A stretch of 64,000 nucleotides of DNA, from NCBI GenBank assembly GCA_000237975.1, contig CP003179.1, forward strand, positions 310,001 through 374,000. The letters run 5' to 3'. The stretch is from Sulfobacillus acidophilus DSM 10332 (lineage in GTDB: Bacteria; Bacillota; Sulfobacillia; Sulfobacillales; Sulfobacillaceae). The notes under the pieces are model-generated. The model was not told the origin of the DNA. It did not search any database and saw only the letters and a program-made list of their open reading frames with translations. The position numbers and the translations under genes were made by a program. Position 1 is the stretch's first letter, and every line of letters begins with the position of its first letter. This document shows, one piece after another, positions 45,733-52,901 of this stretch.

Positions 45733-46899
45733 ATGAAAGACCTAGTGCGCGTTAAACATGAAATCTTAACTCAAATTAACCGCATTCAAATTCCCCCGCA
45801 TGTTCAAGCGGTGCTTGACCGTGTTCGAGACGCCGGCGGGGCCGCGTTTGTGGTGGGAGGCGCCATTCGCAATGCGGTGTGGGGCTATCCGGTGACAGAA
45901 TGGGATATCGTGACGAATCTCTCGTTCGACACCTTAACCCGGTGGTATGGCGCCCGCCATCCCGGCGCGCGCTTTGGCACGGTTCGGGCATCGGCGGACG
46001 TCGAAATTACCGTGATGCGGAAAGAAGACGGGTACCGGGATCACCGGCACCCCGACGTTGTTCGGGTGGTCGCCGATATCGAACAGGATCTGCGGCGACG
46101 GGACTTTACGGTAAATGCGGTGGCCTTCGATGGGGTACGGGTGGTTGCGGTACCGGATTCATGGACGGATTTCGATCAACGCCGGTTGCGGACGGTGGGC
46201 GAGCCGACCACGCGTTTTCGGGAGGACCCGCTTCGGTTGTTGCGCCTCGCCCGTTTTCGGGCGCACTACGGATTGACGGTGGAGACGGCAACCTGGCAAG
46301 CCGCGACCCGGTTGGCGGCGGAAACCCGGTGGGTAAGCCGGGAACGCCGACTGTCGGAATGGCTGAAATTTTTGCAGGCACCGCCTGATCGTTGGTCCAT
46401 GTGGGTCGAACAGGGGCTTTGTAGAGCCCTTGAATGGTCGTGCGAGATGTTTGACAAAGGATTTTGGCAAGACGCTCCCGAGACCGAGGCGGCCCGCATC
46501 GTGGCATTTGCCCAGACGGTGGGCGTAGAGCCGGCGGCCCTCGCCGCCTGGGCCGAGCGGTGGCCTTTGAAGCGGGGGTGGCGCGCTGTTCTTTATCGCG
46601 CGCTTCAGGCGCGCTGGCCCGGAGATCCCGCCGAGTGGGTGACGTGGGCGCGCCGAAGCGATCCCCGGATGGCGCGCTTTTGGTGTGATTTGGCCCGGGC
46701 CGCGGGCCAGGTCGTCACCGATTGTCATCCGCTGAGGCTTGCCGTCGACGGCAACTGGGTGGCTTTACACATTGGGGATACCGGCTCGCGGGTCGGTGCC
46801 GCCCTTCGCTATCTCCAAGATCAAATTGCCGAGCATCCGGATTGGAATCAGCCGACGCGTCTCGAGGCACTCTTAGAGGAGTGGCAAGCCCGGGAATAG
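45733..46899 (+). CDS. CCA tRNA nucleotidyltransferase / poly(A) polymerase family
   Basis: 388 residues, class II nucleotidyltransferase head with RNA-binding body. It adds or repairs the CCA end of tRNAs. The head reads FVVGGAIRNAVWGYPVTEWDIVT, then VRVVADIEQDLRRRDFTVNAVAFDG and TRFREDPLRLLRLARFRAHYGLTVE, the usual order. The usual G-x-VRD is IRN here, and the first catalytic aspartate of D-x-D is Glu56 (E-W-D58), both unusual. The start ATG has AAGGAAAT close by. Poly(A) polymerase activity is an alternative. Confidence 0.85.
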   Translation: MKDLVRVKHEILTQINRIQIPPHVQAVLDRVRDAGGAAFVVGGAIRNAVWGYPVTEWDIVTNLSFDTLTRWYGARHPGARFGTVRASADVEITVMRKEDGYRDHRHPDVVRVVADIEQDLRRRDFTVNAVAFDGVRVVAVPDSWTDFDQRRLRTVGEPTTRFREDPLRLLRLARFRAHYGLTVETATWQAATRLAAETRWVSRERRLSEWLKFLQAPPDRWSMWVEQGLCRALEWSCEMFDKGFWQDAPETEAARIVAFAQTVGVEPAALAAWAERWPLKRGWRAVLYRALQARWPGDPAEWVTWARRSDPRMARFWCDLARAAGQVVTDCHPLRLAVDGNWVALHIGDTGSRVGAALRYLQDQIAEHPDWNQPTRLEALLEEWQARE

Positions 46900-46979
46900 G
46901 GGGTCTTCGACGAGGCTTGCCCGAATACTTCTAGGACAGGGAGCGTAAACGCCCGGGACGAAAGGGGTCAGGGCCGTTG

Positions 46980-47711
46980 ATGGCAATGCGGTGGATTACT
47001 GTGTGGATGTTGATTCTTTTTACGGGGGCGTTGGTTTTAGCGGGGCAACCCTTGATCGATGCCGGTGCCGCCACGCCGCCTCCTCCGCTGGCGGGAGATT
47101 TGTTGCGCGGACGTACGATCATTATCGACCCGGGCCATGGGGGATATGATCCGGGCAGTCGGGGCCGCCAAGCAATTGAGGCCGAGGTCAATCTGGCGAT
47201 TGCCCTCAAACTGAAAACCTGGTTTCAAATGGCGGGTGCGCATGTGCTCATGACCTGGTCGAAACCGTCGGATATCCCGTCTCACCGGAAATATCGCGTG
47301 CAATCGCGATTAGAATGGATTAACCGCCAACCGGCGGACGTGTTGATTGATATTCATTGCAATTCCGGTGCGTCCAGCTATAAAGGTCCGCAAACCTTTT
47401 ATTGGGACGGGGCGGCGAGCTATCATCTTGCGACCGCCGTACAAGAAGAACTGCAGTATTTTACCGGCACGGTGCGGGGGGTCAAACGCATCGACCAATA
47501 TGTGCTGCGCTACGCCAAAATGCCGGCGATCAACGTGGAAGTCGGGTTTATCACCAATCCTCGGGAAGAGCAACGGTTATTAAATCCGACCTATCAAGAA
47601 GACCTTACGTGGTATATTTTCATCGGCACCGAGCGCTGGATGGTGCGTGGTCGCTGGCCCGAATCCCTCTTGAAATCCCCTCCGCCGGTGGATTTATTAC
47701 GCCGGGACTAA
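46980..47711 (+). CDS. N-acetylmuramoyl-L-alanine amidase (Amidase_3, CwlD-like)
   Basis: 243 residues. A signal peptide or anchor (about residues 4-22, WITVWMLILFTGALVLAG) leads to the zinc amidase domain: TIIIDPGHGGYDPGSRG (His ligand), EAEVNLAIALKLK (Glu ligand), ADVLIDIHCNSGAS (His ligand) and INVEVGFITNPREEQRLL (catalytic Glu). The enzyme cuts the bond between peptide and muramic acid in peptidoglycan. CwlD does this in spore cortex, and the CwlD-like length supports that, without proving sporulation. ATG at 46980 with AAAGGGGTCAGGG upstream. Confidence 0.9.
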   Translation: MAMRWITVWMLILFTGALVLAGQPLIDAGAATPPPPLAGDLLRGRTIIIDPGHGGYDPGSRGRQAIEAEVNLAIALKLKTWFQMAGAHVLMTWSKPSDIPSHRKYRVQSRLEWINRQPADVLIDIHCNSGASSYKGPQTFYWDGAASYHLATAVQEELQYFTGTVRGVKRIDQYVLRYAKMPAINVEVGFITNPREEQRLLNPTYQEDLTWYIFIGTERWMVRGRWPESLLKSPPPVDLLRRD

Positions 47712-47751
47712 GGGGAAGTCAGGTATAATGAAGAAGACGCAGGAGGGAATC

Positions 47752-48651
47752 ATGACAACTAAACATATACGCATTATCGGGGTTCCGATCGACTACGGCG
47801 CCGACCGTCGTGGCGTGGATATGGGGCCTAGCGCCATTCGCTACGCCGGTTTACACGAAAAATTACGGCAGGCCGGCCATCAGGTATTGGACAGCGGCAA
47901 TTTGAAAGTACCGGTGCCGGAAAGTCGTCAAATGAAGCACCCGAAGTTGAAGTTTCTGGATGAAATTGTGCAGGTCAATCAGGTATTGGCGCGGGTCGTG
48001 GCCAAGTCTGTCCATGATGGGGAATTTCCCGTGGTACTCGGGGGCGACCATAGTATCGCGATGGGCACCATTGCCGGCCTCTTACGGGTGAGACCGCGGC
48101 TCGGGATGATTTGGTTTGATGCCCACGGGGACTTCAATACCGAAGAGACGACCCCATCCGGTAATGTGCATGGGATGCCCGTCGCGGTAGCGGCCGGGCT
48201 CAGTCAGAGTGCGTTGGCCTTACCGTTTCGCGATCATTTTCTGGATCCGGCCAAAATTGTCTACGTGGGGGTCCGTACCTTGGATCCCGATGAAGCGGAG
48301 GCCCTTCGGCAAAGTCAGGCGACCGTGTTTTCCATGCATGAAGTCGACCGTTATGGTATGCGGGAAGTGATGGCACGGGCGATGGATATTGTCACTCAGG
48401 GCACCGACGGGGTGCATTTAAGTTTCGATATTGATGCGCTGGACCCGCTATTTGCCCCGGGATCGGGGACGCCCTACAGTGGCGGACTCACCGATCGGGA
48501 AGCGCATTTGGCGTTGGAATTGTTGGCGGAGGCCGATATCTTGACCTCGATGGAAATGGTCGAAGTCAATCCCATTTTGGATGAACATAATCGAACGGGG
48601 GAGTTGGCCGCCAACCTTATTGCGTCGGCCCTCGGCCATCGCATTATTTAA
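47752..48651 (+). CDS. rocF: Arginase
   Basis: 299 residues, typical of the Bacillus-type enzyme. It splits arginine into ornithine and urea with a di-manganese site. Ligands are visible in VVLGGDHSIAMGT, MIWFDAHGDFNTEET and HLSFDIDALDPLFAPG. PSGNVHGMPVAVAAG and LTDREAHLALELL are also typical. The ATG at 47752 follows GCAGGAGGGAATC; an upstream ATG at 47728 lacks a site. The neighbouring M20 amidohydrolase suggests a small amino-acid breakdown cluster. No urease genes are present here. Confidence 0.94.
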   Translation: MTTKHIRIIGVPIDYGADRRGVDMGPSAIRYAGLHEKLRQAGHQVLDSGNLKVPVPESRQMKHPKLKFLDEIVQVNQVLARVVAKSVHDGEFPVVLGGDHSIAMGTIAGLLRVRPRLGMIWFDAHGDFNTEETTPSGNVHGMPVAVAAGLSQSALALPFRDHFLDPAKIVYVGVRTLDPDEAEALRQSQATVFSMHEVDRYGMREVMARAMDIVTQGTDGVHLSFDIDALDPLFAPGSGTPYSGGLTDREAHLALELLAEADILTSMEMVEVNPILDEHNRTGELAANLIASALGHRII

Positions 48652-48665
48652 GAGAGGAGTGCGAG

Positions 48666-49769
48666 ATGGCGTCCATTATCGAATTTCGTCGGGCATTGCA
48701 CCAAATTCCCGAATTGGCGTTTCACGAAACCCAAACCCAAGCGTATGTCCTGCAAACCTTGCGGAATATGGGGTGGGACCCTCGGCCGATTGCGGGCACC
48801 GGCGTGGTTGTCGATATCGACAGCGGACGACCCGGCCCGACCGTCATGTTTCGCGCCGATATGGACGGATTGCCTCTCACGGAAGAAACCGGTCTCGCCT
48901 TTGCCTCGCGGCACCCGGGGGTGATGCACGCCTGTGGGCATGACGGCCACATGGCGATCCTTCTGGGATTGGCCGAACGCTTAGCCGAGGGAGCCCCCTT
49001 TCAGGGGCGGGTGCGATTGGCCTTTCAGCCGGCGGAAGAACGGCCGCCCGGGGGAGCCCTCCAGATGATTGAAGCCGGCGTGCTGGACGGGGTGGACGAA
49101 GTCTACGGTCTTCATTTATGGGCGGGCTTTCCGGTGGGCACCATAGGCTTGCGGCCGGGACCGATGATGGCGAACGCCGACGAATTTCGGATTGTCGTGA
49201 CCGGTCGGGGAGGACACGGGTCGCAACCGGAGGCGACCGCTGATGCGGTCCTGTTGGCGTCGCAAATCGTCGTGAATTTGCAAACGATTGTTTCTCGCCG
49301 GGTTCCCGCGTTGGAGCCGGCCGTGGTCACCTGTGGGACGATTCAGGGGGGCCATACGTTTAATATTATTGCCGAACGCGCCGAAATTACCGGCACCGTA
49401 CGGACCTTTTCGGCCGAAACCCAAGCCTTGGTCCGACAAGAAATGGCCCATATCGCTCGTACAACGGCTCTGTTATACGGTGCCGACGCGGAACTCGTCT
49501 ATAACCCGGGCTATCCCGCCCTCATCAACGCGGAAGAACCTACCCGGCGGTGGCAAGCCCGTTTGCGCGAATGGGCGACGGTGGTGGAGCCGGAACCGTC
49601 CATGGGGGGCGAGGACTTTGCGTATTATCTCCATCATCGACCCGGAGCGTTTCTCTTTCTCGGCGCACGCCCGGACGTCGAATATCCGCATCATTCACCC
49701 CATTTCCAAATCAATGAAGACGCGTTGGCGCTCGGGGTCGAGGCGTTTTGGAATGTCATCCGGGCCTAA
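48666..49769 (+). CDS. M20D-family amidohydrolase (N-acyl-amino-acid or hippurate hydrolase-like)
   Basis: 367 residues. It begins RRALHQIPELAFHETQTQAYV and carries the metal-site motifs FRADMDGLPLTEE, VMHACGHDGHMAILLG, FQPAEERPPGGALQMIEAGVLDG and MGGEDFAYYL. GRGGHGSQPEATADAVLLASQIVVNLQTIVSR marks the dimerisation domain. The family removes acyl groups from amino acids or auxin conjugates; the substrate here is unknown. The ATG follows AGAGAGGAGTGCGAG, 14 bases after the arginase stop, so the two genes are probably co-transcribed. Confidence 0.9.
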   Translation: MASIIEFRRALHQIPELAFHETQTQAYVLQTLRNMGWDPRPIAGTGVVVDIDSGRPGPTVMFRADMDGLPLTEETGLAFASRHPGVMHACGHDGHMAILLGLAERLAEGAPFQGRVRLAFQPAEERPPGGALQMIEAGVLDGVDEVYGLHLWAGFPVGTIGLRPGPMMANADEFRIVVTGRGGHGSQPEATADAVLLASQIVVNLQTIVSRRVPALEPAVVTCGTIQGGHTFNIIAERAEITGTVRTFSAETQALVRQEMAHIARTTALLYGADAELVYNPGYPALINAEEPTRRWQARLREWATVVEPEPSMGGEDFAYYLHHRPGAFLFLGARPDVEYPHHSPHFQINEDALALGVEAFWNVIRA

Positions 49770-49822
49770 ATCCCAGGGCTTCGGGGCGAAGCGAGGCTAT
49801 CTTTGATTTAAGGTGGTTAGGT

Positions 49823-50278
49823 ATGCCGCAATTATCTTCGGTCTACCGCAAATTAGAAGAAGGGGCCAAGCGGCTGACGCCTCAACGGGAATTAATCATC
49901 AAAATTTTTTTGAATCATCCCGGAGAGCATTTGTCGGCTGAAGAAGTGCATCGTTTGGTACGGCAGGAATTTCAGGATATCGGATTGGCCACGGTATACC
50001 GCACCTTGGAACTATTGACCGGGTTGGAAATTTTGGAACGCATCAACTTTAACGACGGCCGGGCACGCTATGAAATGAAAGTGCGGGAAGAAACCCATCG
50101 GCATCATCATTTAGTCTGTTTACGGTGTGGTCGCGTCGAAGAATTTCAAGAAGACTTGTTAGATCCGTTGGAAGATCGGTTGTTGCAGGAACGGGGATTT
50201 CGTGTGATGGATCATGAGTTGAAGTTTTACGGGATTTGCGCCCATTGTCGTCGACAAGGTAAAAAGGAGTGGGAATGA
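49823..50278 (+). CDS. Fur family transcriptional regulator
   Basis: 151 residues. The winged helix reads RLTPQRELIIKIFLNHPGEHLSAEEVHRLVRQEFQDIGLATVYRTLELLTGLEILERI. The dimerisation domain has HRHHHLVCLRCGRVEEF and the second pair CAHC, which form the structural zinc site. The HHH stretch and HELKFYG look more like Fur or PerR than Zur, but the metal cannot be assigned. The ATG follows TTAAGGTGGTTAGGT. The last bases overlap the start of the ArsC/Spx-like gene, so the two are translationally coupled. Confidence 0.9.
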   Translation: MPQLSSVYRKLEEGAKRLTPQRELIIKIFLNHPGEHLSAEEVHRLVRQEFQDIGLATVYRTLELLTGLEILERINFNDGRARYEMKVREETHRHHHLVCLRCGRVEEFQEDLLDPLEDRLLQERGFRVMDHELKFYGICAHCRRQGKKEWE

Positions 50279-50616
50279 TGATCTTTCATGGCTACGTGCG
50301 GTGAACCACGTCGAAAAAAGCTCGAGCGTGGCTTGAGCAGCACCAGATTCCGATTACCCGGGAACATGATTTGGTTTTGCACCCTCTCGCTCCGGAAGAA
50401 TTAGCTCGATTGGCCGCGAAGGCCGGCGGTATGGAGGCCTTGTTGTCGCGTAAGAGTCCCAAATATAAAGAATACGCGGGGCGTGTGACGGCGCCGGGCG
50501 ATTGGTTGGCCTTGATGGCGGAAGAACCCCGCCTTATTCGCCGTCCCATTTTGGAACGGGACACGGACGTGCTAATCGGCTTTGATCCGGACGAGTGGCA
50601 ACGCCGGTTACTTTAG
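50278..50616 (+). CDS. ArsC/Spx-family protein with in-frame UGA at the catalytic cysteine (candidate selenoprotein, or a broken gene)
   Basis: From the ATG at 50278 (or 50275), with AAAAGGAGTGGG upstream, the frame reads MIFHGYVR, then UGA (50302-50304), then TTSKKARAWLEQHQIP and on to a TAG at 50614. The 103 codons after the UGA are uninterrupted, and end with ArsC-family marks (LLSRKSPKYKEY, EEPRLIRRPILE, VLIGFDPDEW). In the family this position is the redox cysteine (GYPxC-T-x-x-K-K-A). The UGA thus replaces exactly that residue, as in selenoproteins. A recent nonsense mutation or a sequencing error is the alternative. The product would be 112 residues. It is coupled to the Fur gene and interlocks with moeA. 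Confidence 0.6.
50306..50331 (+). promoter_or_regulatory. Stem-loop directly after the UGA (candidate bacterial SECIS)
   Basis: CCACG (50306-50310) pairs with CGTGG (50327-50331) and TCGA (50311-50314) with TCGA (50322-50325), with one bulged G (50326) and a seven-base loop, AAAAAGC. The loop G at 50320 lies 16 bases past the UGA, within the distance expected of bacterial selenocysteine elements. The bases also encode a conserved protein stretch, so the fold may be chance. Confidence 0.35.
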
Positions 50617-51812
50617 GGGCCGGTAGGCAAAAGCCAGCCGGACAGGCGAGTGCCGGCCGGTTGGGGCGGCGCGCCATGAGGAATCACGGCCAGACCGTCC
50701 GCTTCCCGAAAGGACCGGATGGCATCCGAGGATTGGTCCTCTAGGGGCGTCATCGCGTAGAAGCCCTGGTCCGTCGGCAACAGACGGACTTTGAGAAAGC
50801 GGGTTTCTCGTGTGGGCTTGGGATAGGGTGTGGTCAGTACCCCTTCGACGGCGGTTAAGGGGAAGGGGCGGCCCAGGAGCTGCGCCAAAGCCGGTAGCAC
50901 CAGGAGGTAGAACCCGATGAGGGCCGCTCCGGGATTGCCGGATAAGGCGATGGCCACCGTGGTCCCGATTTGGGCGGCCGCCACCGCTTTGCCCGGATGC
51001 ATATCCAGCCGCCAAAACAGCCGTTCGAAATCGCGGGCAAAAATTTGGGGAATAAAGTCATAATCTCCCACGGAGGCACCGCCTGTGGTTAAGACCAGGG
51101 AATAGTGTTGGAGCTTCGGATCATGGAAAAACTGGGCGACCTGGTCCGAATCGTCGGGAATGACGGCCCGATCGACCATGGCCCCCCAATGGGTGAGCAA
51201 TGCCTCGAATAAGGGCCCATTGGTATCATATACCTGCCCCGGACCTAACGGAGCTCCCGGCGCAACCAATTCGTCGCCGGACGTGGCGACCAAAATCCGC
51301 GGGCGTTGCCGCACCGAGACGGTGGCGACTCCCACGGCCGCCAACTGCCCGATGGATAAGGCGTCCAGATGGTGTCCGGCCTCGAAAAGCGGTTGCCCTT
51401 GACGATATTCATGCCCTTTCTCCATAATATTCCATCCTGGTCGGATGGCCCGTTCAATCTGGACGGTGTTGTCCTGCCGGATGACGCGTTCTTGCTCCAC
51501 CACCGCGGTGGCTCCGACGGGGACTGGGGCTCCGGTCAGGATGCGGACGGCTTGACCTTTTTCTAGGGGGGTCGGCCAAACGGTACCGGCCCGCACTTGC
51601 CCCACCACCGTAAAGGTGCCGGGGCACTCGTCGGCCCTCACGGCATAGCCGTCCATGGCGGCTCGCGCAAACGGCGGGACGTCGGTGCCGGCCAAAACCG
51701 GCGCGGCTAACGTGCGGCCTAGTGCCTGCCGAAGGGGAATCGCTTCCGCCGGTAAGGTAAATACTCGGCTTTGGAGCAGGGTCTGAGCGTCGGAAACGGA
51801 AAGATAGGACAC
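50613..51812 (-). CDS. moeA: Molybdopterin molybdenumtransferase MoeA
   Basis: 399 residues. It inserts molybdate into adenylylated molybdopterin. It shows LAAPVLAGTDVPPFARAAMDGYAV, ILTGAPVPVGATAVV, the VLTTGGASVGDYDFIP loop (Ala where Val is usual), and MHPGKAVAAAQIG, VAIALSGNPGAALIGFYLLVLPAL. An in-frame GTG lies at 51821. The GTG at 51812 is preferred because GAGGTG lies 5 bases upstream of it. Third gene in the mobA-mobB-moeA operon. Its stop interlocks with the convergent ArsC/Spx-like gene (TTAG). Confidence 0.93.
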   Translation of the reverse strand: MSYLSVSDAQTLLQSRVFTLPAEAIPLRQALGRTLAAPVLAGTDVPPFARAAMDGYAVRADECPGTFTVVGQVRAGTVWPTPLEKGQAVRILTGAPVPVGATAVVEQERVIRQDNTVQIERAIRPGWNIMEKGHEYRQGQPLFEAGHHLDALSIGQLAAVGVATVSVRQRPRILVATSGDELVAPGAPLGPGQVYDTNGPLFEALLTHWGAMVDRAVIPDDSDQVAQFFHDPKLQHYSLVLTTGGASVGDYDFIPQIFARDFERLFWRLDMHPGKAVAAAQIGTTVAIALSGNPGAALIGFYLLVLPALAQLLGRPFPLTAVEGVLTTPYPKPTRETRFLKVRLLPTDQGFYAMTPLEDQSSDAIRSFREADGLAVIPHGAPPQPAGTRLSGWLLPTGP

Positions 51813-51825
51813 GAACGACACCTCG

Positions 51826-52308
51826 TTATTCTAGAATGTGGCATAGGCGGGACCAATGGTCCCCGATCTGTTGACGAAGGGCTTCGATTTGGGTATCGGA
51901 GAGCGGCAATTCGGCCGCAATCCAGGGAATCGCCGGATCCTCCGGGGGCATGGGAGAAATCCAGAGGGCCACTTGAATAGACGGTATCCATTCCGGACTG
52001 ATGACGATTTTAGGCCAGGGGGCCCCCTTATCCCCTTCGACGATCAAAAGGGACGTGAGGGGTGCCAACAGACGATAGATTGCAAGCCGATCATAGGGCC
52101 CGCGCCAAATGATCCCGTCGGACGCCGCGAACAGGATCGGTCCCGTGCTCAACGATCCCCATTCGGCGGTATCGGAGCCCGGTTTGTCGGGCGGTAACCG
52201 ATGATGGCTCCATTTCAGCACGAGAGCCGACGGCAAAACGGGGATGAGGGCCGTAATGAGTCGCGTCTTACCCACCTGCGACGGTCCGGCAATATGCAAA
52301 ATATGCAT
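51826..52308 (-). CDS. mobB: Molybdopterin-guanine dinucleotide biosynthesis protein MobB-like
   Basis: 160 residues. A P-loop GTP-binding protein that aids MobA. It begins MHILHIAGPSQVGKTRLITALIPVL (Walker A is GPSQVGKTRL), followed by ALVLKWSHHRLPPDKPGSDTAEW, the usual KHxxH-like segment in altered form. Further on, LLIVEGDKGAPWPKIVI matches the VEGFK-like MobB segment. The ATG at 52308 follows GAGGAAGGCC; the extension to 52356 runs into mobA. It lies between mobA and moeA, which supports the assignment. Confidence 0.85.
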   Translation of the reverse strand: MHILHIAGPSQVGKTRLITALIPVLPSALVLKWSHHRLPPDKPGSDTAEWGSLSTGPILFAASDGIIWRGPYDRLAIYRLLAPLTSLLIVEGDKGAPWPKIVISPEWIPSIQVALWISPMPPEDPAIPWIAAELPLSDTQIEALRQQIGDHWSRLCHILE

Positions 52309-52316
52309 GGCCTTCC

Positions 52317-52901
52317 TCAAGACGGGGCGGCCGAATCGGCCAAAAAGCGTTCCCATTCGGCGGGGGTATTGACATTGACGAGCCAGCTGCCGGGAACCGG
52401 AACCATCACCGTCCGGAGTTGGGCCAACACATCAATAATCCGTACCCGACGGGGACCGGCACATACGTCGGTCAATAGCTGCAAGGTATCGTGGTGCCAA
52501 AGAGCCGCCAAAGGCTGAATCCGGTGGGGCGTGCCGGGATAGACCACGTCGATTTGCCGACCCGTGTGTTGTTGAAGCATCGCATAGAGTTGGGGCGGAA
52601 TCCCCGGCAAGTCGACGGCCAAGACCGCCAAATAAGGATGCGGGGTCCGTTCCAACCCGCGCCGAATGCCCTCTAGTGGGCCGGCGTCCGGGGATTCGTC
52701 GACCAAAACGTCCGGTGCCGCAGGGGTGCCATAAGGACGGGATACCCAAATGGTGCCGGCCAAAGCGGTTTTCAACACCGTTTCGGCATGCGTTAACAGC
52801 GACCCGTCTTGACCGGGAAAGGGCAGGGTTTCTTTTGGGTGTCCCATCCGGCGGGATTGGCCCCCAGCTAAAACAACCCCATCGTAGGGTAAGCGGTCCA
52901 T
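52317..52901 (-). CDS. mobA: Molybdenum cofactor guanylyltransferase MobA-like
   Basis: 194 residues. It transfers GMP to molybdopterin. The nucleotide-binding signature is VVLAGGQSRRMGHPKETLPF. Then come VDESPDAGPLEGIRRGLE and LAVLAVDLPGIPPQLYAML, with NVNTPAEWERF near the end, as in MobA proteins. MocA/IspD-like transferases share the first motif, but the mobB and moeA neighbours favour MobA. The ATG has GGAGGGAATCACA upstream. It is first of a three-gene operon, suggesting that the cell makes molybdoenzymes. Confidence 0.9.
   Translation of the reverse strand: MDRLPYDGVVLAGGQSRRMGHPKETLPFPGQDGSLLTHAETVLKTALAGTIWVSRPYGTPAAPDVLVDESPDAGPLEGIRRGLERTPHPYLAVLAVDLPGIPPQLYAMLQQHTGRQIDVVYPGTPHRIQPLAALWHHDTLQLLTDVCAGPRRVRIIDVLAQLRTVMVPVPGSWLVNVNTPAEWERFLADSAAPS

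Follow-up and report, generated by a model that had tools for sequence, protein, structure and literature searches.

An in-frame UGA at the active-site position of an ArsC/Spx-family gene, conserved across Sulfobacillus and its relatives, very probably specifies selenocysteine

A gene of the ArsC/Spx family in Sulfobacillus acidophilus DSM 10332 very probably encodes a selenoprotein, in which an in-frame UGA specifies the active-site nucleophile. Insertion of selenocysteine (Sec) in the cell is what the sequence comparisons set out below lead us to expect. The gene lies in a stretch of 64,000 nucleotides, called the window throughout, which spans positions 310001–374000 of a 3.47-Mb contig; the genome is 3.56 Mb in two contigs. 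The relevant features of the window are as follows.

49823–50278, forward strand: Fur-family regulator gene, the conserved partner, directly upstream of the Sec-ArsC gene and overlapping it.
50264–50269, forward strand: AAGGAG, similar to a ribosome-binding site, 5' of the ATG at 50275/50278 (from the sequence).
50278–50616, forward strand: gene predicted to encode a selenoprotein of the ArsC/Spx family, 112 residues long and with Sec as residue 9; start at ATG 50275 or 50278.
50302–50304, forward strand: putative Sec codon, UGA, placed where the family has its nucleophilic Cys, which in Spx is the first Cys of CxxC (from translation and alignments).

On the forward strand, 50278–50616 translates to MIFHGYVR*TTSKKARAWL..., with a single in-frame TGA at 50302–50304 and a TAG stop at 50614–50616. 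Two in-frame ATG codons, at 50275 and 50278, lie a few bases 3' of AAGGAG, and either may be the true start. The Fur-family reading frame ends at 50278. The initial annotation had described a frame that was intact to a normal end apart from the UGA, followed a ribosome-binding site, overlapped an upstream Fur gene and carried its UGA at the catalytic Cys of the ArsC/Spx family. The coordinates bear out the first three statements. The fourth agrees with a PDB sequence search, where the UGA residue aligned with the first Cys of the CxxC motif in solved Spx structures. We take this Cys to be Cys10. The corresponding motif of the window protein is UxxS, with Ser as the second active-site residue.

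When the UGA is translated as an amino acid, the product of 112 residues matched the Pfam ArsC domain (PF03960) at 50.4 bits, compared with a gathering cut-off of 24. It was the sole ArsC-domain match found in its genome. The closest curated NCBIfam model was TIGR01617 (Spx/MgsR), for which the score of 74.3 bits was slightly below the cut-off of 75.05. Scores for the other models were 52.7 bits (cut-off 123) for Spx, 43.8 bits (cut-off 121) for the YffB-type ArsC family reductase NF008107, 28.4 bits (cut-off 85) for the ArsC family (seleno)protein NF041106 and 26.4 bits (cut-off 106) for the arsenate reductase (glutaredoxin) TIGR00014. The last two scores rule out assignment to NF041106 or TIGR00014. 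A search of an anti-phage defence library gave no match. TALE repeat proteins also appeared in the PDB sequence search, over a stretch of 22 to 24 residues, and were taken as chance matches.

The genus-level set consists of the window's own genome alone; the comparison was made across 34 genomes of the same family, with a threshold of E ≤ 0.001 for homologues. A homologue was found in 29 genomes, counting the window's own gene, and the family homologues share 37–60% protein identity with the window protein. Exactly one TGA falls inside the match in all 29. These TGA codons occupy one alignment column, in which UGC or UGU never occurs, and the frames are intact 3' of the TGA. Such retention of UGA in related species (29/29, in 34 genomes) is a mark of bacterial selenoproteins.

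All 29 gene-bearing genomes encode SelA or SelD above the cut-off and 26 encode both; the exceptions are G002 and G033, with no SelA above the cut-off, and G009, with no SelD. The gene is absent from G003 and G004, which are 96–97% complete, and from G014, G023 and G032, which are 59–63% complete. In G003 and G004 there was no SelA or SelD above the cut-off, no close copy of the partner Fur (best match 31–32% identity) and no tRNA-Sec match among the 90 candidates scored per genome, a search whose zeros, in 10 of the 34 genomes, are no proof of absence. G014 and G023 have both SelA and SelD; G032 has neither.

We searched the complete genome of the window for selA, selB, selD and a Sec tRNA, and all four were present, as expected for a bacterial selenoprotein. 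Neither of the findings that the initial annotation had named as refuting its reading came up: the Sec machinery is there, and sister species have no Cys codon at the UGA. The tRNA-Sec has anticodon UCA and scored 73 bits. SelB scored 339 bits (cut-off 242), SelA 551 bits (cut-off 268) and SelD 357 bits (cut-off 125). The SelD gene has one in-frame TGA of its own, which makes it another Sec-UGA gene in this genome.

G000:C1:1401608–1402540 (locus L171, outside the window), forward strand: SelD with an in-frame UGA.

An in-frame UGA is present in all 30 SelDs of the family that scored above the cut-off. Published work also reports use of Sec in these bacteria. According to PMC4378227, every Sulfobacillus genome studied there has putative selenocysteine formate dehydrogenases, and PMC7409299 reports up-regulation of the Sec-containing peroxiredoxin PrxU in S. 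thermotolerans.

The tRNA-Sec model had a second match in the window's genome, at 56 bits and above the cut-off. This tRNA combines a long variable arm with the Cys anticodon GCA and resembles the selC* tRNA-Cys described in PMC7609411. Similar GCA tRNAs were called in five relatives (L213, L216, L217, L218 and L219).

G000:C1:1007566–1007656 (locus L010, outside the window), reverse strand: tRNA-Sec-like tRNA with anticodon GCA, found with the tRNA-Sec model.

Downstream of the UGA is a hairpin resembling a bacterial SECIS (bSECIS) element.

50320–50338, forward strand: SECIS-like hairpin GCUCGAGC-GUG-GCUUGAGC, with the loop GUG at 50328–50330, 23 nt after the UGA.

The bSECIS model, as outlined in PMC13188914, has a loop of 3–9 nt with G in its first two positions, an upper stem of 4–16 bp, a distance of 16–37 nt from the UGA and a free energy of −7.5 or lower; the apex is mostly N1-G-[G/U]-N-N2, with N1 and N2 paired. 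The window hairpin fits this model, having an 8 bp stem, the loop GUG, a spacing of 23 and an energy of −12.2 kcal/mol over the hairpin stretch. Its apex, C-G-U-G-G, conforms to the pattern. A search of the window with Rfam gave no match at gathering scores.

The hairpin is shared by the family. The sequence GCGUGGC, which contains the GUG loop, is invariant in the 29 family genes, 23 nt after the UGA. As a control we used 100 sets in which synonymous codons were randomised and the protein was kept. At the exact spacing, 28 of the 29 genes form a stem with 4 pairs or more, whereas no codon-randomised set had more than 11 of 29 that did so; in the exception, L039, the run of contiguous pairs at the fixed apex is shorter than 4. 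The mean fold energy of nt 13–45 was −11.5 kcal/mol, compared with −8.6 kcal/mol for randomised codons. When six pairs of the hairpin were tested, 91.4% of 174 cells were standard pairs, and one stem pair occurs as GC, CG, AU, GU and UA. The covariation score was matched by none of 500 shuffles, which do not allow for relatedness. One of five covariation measures was not striking: two-sided pair changes were as high in 100 of the 500 shuffles. The lower stem is not kept by all sequences, and each of the two outer pairs is broken in 7 of 29. Codon usage in the stem is biased. GCG encodes the second Ala in all 29 genes, compared with 85 of 225 Ala codons elsewhere in the genes, and CGA encodes the Arg in 25 of 28, compared with 23 of 225 elsewhere. 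The case for constraint on synonymous codon choice inside the stem is strong. As a positive control, 20 SelD genes of the family were folded, and a hairpin was found after the UGA in the same zone.

More distant relatives were collected by a scan of GTDB contigs, from which 80 of 163 related loci were kept, and by a phylum search, from which 30 were kept. The 29 best GTDB loci, including L139, all have UGA, and several of the closest relatives bear Sulfobacillus names. The other 51 comprise 19 UGA and 32 Cys forms. The 30 loci kept from the phylum search, which include the window's genome and one further member of the family, divide into 14 UGA and 16 Cys forms. Over all 110 kept loci the nucleophile column thus holds UGA in 62 and Cys in 48, an alignment of UGA with the functional Cys of homologues that is again typical of bacterial selenoproteins. 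Chloroflexota, Thermodesulfobacteriota and other Bacillota are represented among the UGA forms. A tree built by a quick method from 109 of the 110 rows (one identical row dropped), with the Sec/Cys column masked, requires 6 Sec/Cys changes, of which 2 are forced by well-supported branches. Its columns are few and many of its forks are weak, and the number of switches should be taken as provisional.

We also scored further homologues against NCBIfam: nine besides the S. thermotolerans locus L072 described below, eight of them UGA forms. None of the nine reached the NF041106 cut-off; the scores reported for seven of the UGA forms were 32.8–39.5. TIGR01617 was passed by L131, L133, L144, L150 and the Cys form L110. 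L144, L150 and other UGA loci of the phylum search are Spx/MgsR-type proteins of Bacillota with a UGA; they pass TIGR01617 and fail NF041106. The UGA-containing Spx/MgsR-type proteins of other Bacillota are possibly a wider, unmodelled group of selenoproteins.

With the window's Fur as the query (tblastn, 1e-6), 27 of the 29 best loci showed a Fur homologue directly upstream and on the same strand, the exceptions being L066 and L071; none of the 51 other kept loci did. MoeA, often with MobA/MobB, is next on the opposite strand in many of the 29. In the window the order across 45733–52901 is a CCA-like gene, arginase, M20 peptidase, Fur and Sec-ArsC, then MoeA, MobB and MobA on the opposite strand. 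This order is partly retained in relatives.

An AlphaFold2 model of the window protein, with Cys in place of Sec, had a mean pLDDT of 95.5. The predicted fold was equally close to Spx (1z3e) and YffB (1rw1), with a TMq of 0.86 for both, and less close to E. coli ArsC (1i9d; TMq 0.77); the closest folds include a transcription regulator, Spx. The 29 family members divide into 17 with Cys, 8 with Ser and 4 with Ala as the second active-site residue, and the nucleophile position is assigned to Sec in every case. The Spx-type CxxC redox pair has no full counterpart in the window protein (UxxS), and UxxC is found in 17 of 29. Retention of the selenol together with loss of the resolving thiol in 12 of 29 favours, we infer, an enzyme that uses an outside thiol or substrate over a CxxC switch.

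A redox enzyme is probably the role of the protein, if it is indeed a selenoprotein; this role is suggested by the family and the pattern of residues. In the scheme that we propose, SelB would bring selenocysteinyl-tRNA-Sec to the UGA at 50302–50304, guided by the downstream hairpin, and translation would continue to the TAG at 50614. This would yield a member of the ArsC/YffB/Spx group with 112 residues and a thioredoxin fold, in which Sec would be the N-terminal active-site nucleophile. The selenolate may attack a disulfide or an oxidised substrate; an external thiol would then regenerate it, or the second Cys in those members that have one. The protein would be made together with the Fur-family regulator and may act within the handling of iron or oxidative stress.

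Other roles are less likely. The selenoprotein could bind RNA polymerase alpha as a transcription regulator of the Spx/MgsR type, with Sec as a redox sensor beside Fur. By E-value TIGR01617 is the best-matching model for each of the 29 members, the top fold match is Spx in complex with alpha-CTD, the Fur neighbour is conserved and no other ArsC-domain protein was found in the genome. Conversely, the window protein falls short of the cut-offs for TIGR01617 and, by a long way, for Spx (52.7 against 123); YffB fits the fold equally well; and the partner Cys of a CxxC switch is absent in 12 of 29. We consider a regulatory role unlikely. Slightly less likely still is the full form of the idea, in which acid- and metal-loving bacteria would pair a Fur-family regulator with an Spx-type regulator that has a selenol in place of the redox-sensing thiol. 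If this were true, a Sec-based regulator would join iron and redox sensing via selenium, and would be lost with the whole selenium trait.

A selenium-dependent arsenate reductase is about as doubtful as that full form. The protein would then be the arsC that annotators did not find in S. thermotolerans; PMC7409299 reports arsR in strain Kr1 and no identified arsC. The Kr1 chromosome does have the UGA gene, which ordinary gene callers would be expected to miss, and the window gene provides the only ArsC-domain match found in its genome.

L072, CP019454.1, 3989–4342: UGA-containing ArsC-family gene of S. thermotolerans Kr1.

Against an arsenate reductase, TIGR00014 scores of 26.4 bits for the window protein and 33.7 bits for L072 are far below the cut-off of 106, the gene sits with fur and moeA, and the match to the ArsC fold is weaker than those to Spx and YffB.

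That a change of code or suppression makes the UGA specify a standard amino acid, such as Trp or Cys, is highly improbable. The tRNA-Sec-like tRNA with a Cys anticodon indicates that unusual tRNAs exist in this genome; its anticodon is GCA and not UCA, and decoding of the UGA by this tRNA is rejected. UGA retains its function as a stop codon: the window's own Fur gene terminates in TGA. Moreover, 4 of the 29 homologues read through the first UGA yet terminate at a second in-frame TGA, and general reassignment of UGA is rejected on that basis. Neither route would need a SECIS-type hairpin. A single-base change from TGC or TGT to TGA, the rival named by the initial annotation, would be a sequencing error or fresh mutation in an ordinary gene or a new pseudogene, and is hardly tenable: TGA is one base from either codon and more distant groups have Cys homologues (48 of 110 kept loci), but the 29 of 29 sister UGAs with intact frames reject it, and the conserved hairpin and the loss of the gene in two near-complete genomes without SelA and SelD also stand against it.

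The reading that we prefer, a selenoprotein with Sec at the active site, has precedents. 'ArsC-like' and 'distant ArsC homolog' selenoproteins are in print (PMC1794560), ArsC selenoproteins of UxxS and UxxC type were described in the GOS survey (PMC2398784), and ArsC-family selenoproteins are covered in reviews (PMC9312934, PMC13188914). UxxS forms are placed in pfam03960/COG1393 'Arsenate reductase', and in TIGR00014 in the 2026 review (PMC2398784, PMC9312934, PMC13188914). The window protein resembles them in its ArsC domain, its putative Sec at the first position and its Ser three residues on. It differs in falling far under the TIGR00014 cut-off (26 of 106 bits), and its family differs in being 17/29 UxxC and 4/29 UxxA, in its Sulfobacillus lineage and in its fur neighbour. 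With the ArsC-like UxxC selenoproteins (cd03032 in GOS; NF041106, ArsC_rel_Se_1) it shares an ArsC-related sequence and a Sec/Cys nucleophile, whereas its NF041106 score is well short of the cut-off. The Spx/MgsR regulators (TIGR01617; PDB 1z3e, 7f75) give the closest model and the top fold match, and the first Cys of the Spx CxxC aligns with the UGA. Unlike them, the window protein would have Sec for Cys, has Ser for the second Cys and, at 112 residues, is some 20 shorter than Spx. It is similar to the YffB-type reductase (NF008107; PDB 1rw1) in fold and in length (114), and differs in its predicted Sec nucleophile and its low NF008107 score.

A search of the open-access literature by title and abstract gave no report of this gene in Sulfobacillus. 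The window gene is a lineage-wide addition to the known ArsC-family selenoproteins and is outside both curated models tied to them, TIGR00014 and NF041106. It would be a family-wide selenoprotein of Sulfobacillus and its relatives, encoded by a gene that ordinary gene callers would truncate or overlook, and it offers a concrete candidate for the arsC reported as missing in S. thermotolerans (PMC7409299). It also points to UGA-containing ArsC/Spx-type genes at many other loci in Bacillota, Chloroflexota and Thermodesulfobacteriota, of which those scanned fall below TIGR00014 and NF041106. Finally, the change from UxxC to UxxS or UxxA within one family provides a route for testing the role of the selenol without a resolving thiol.
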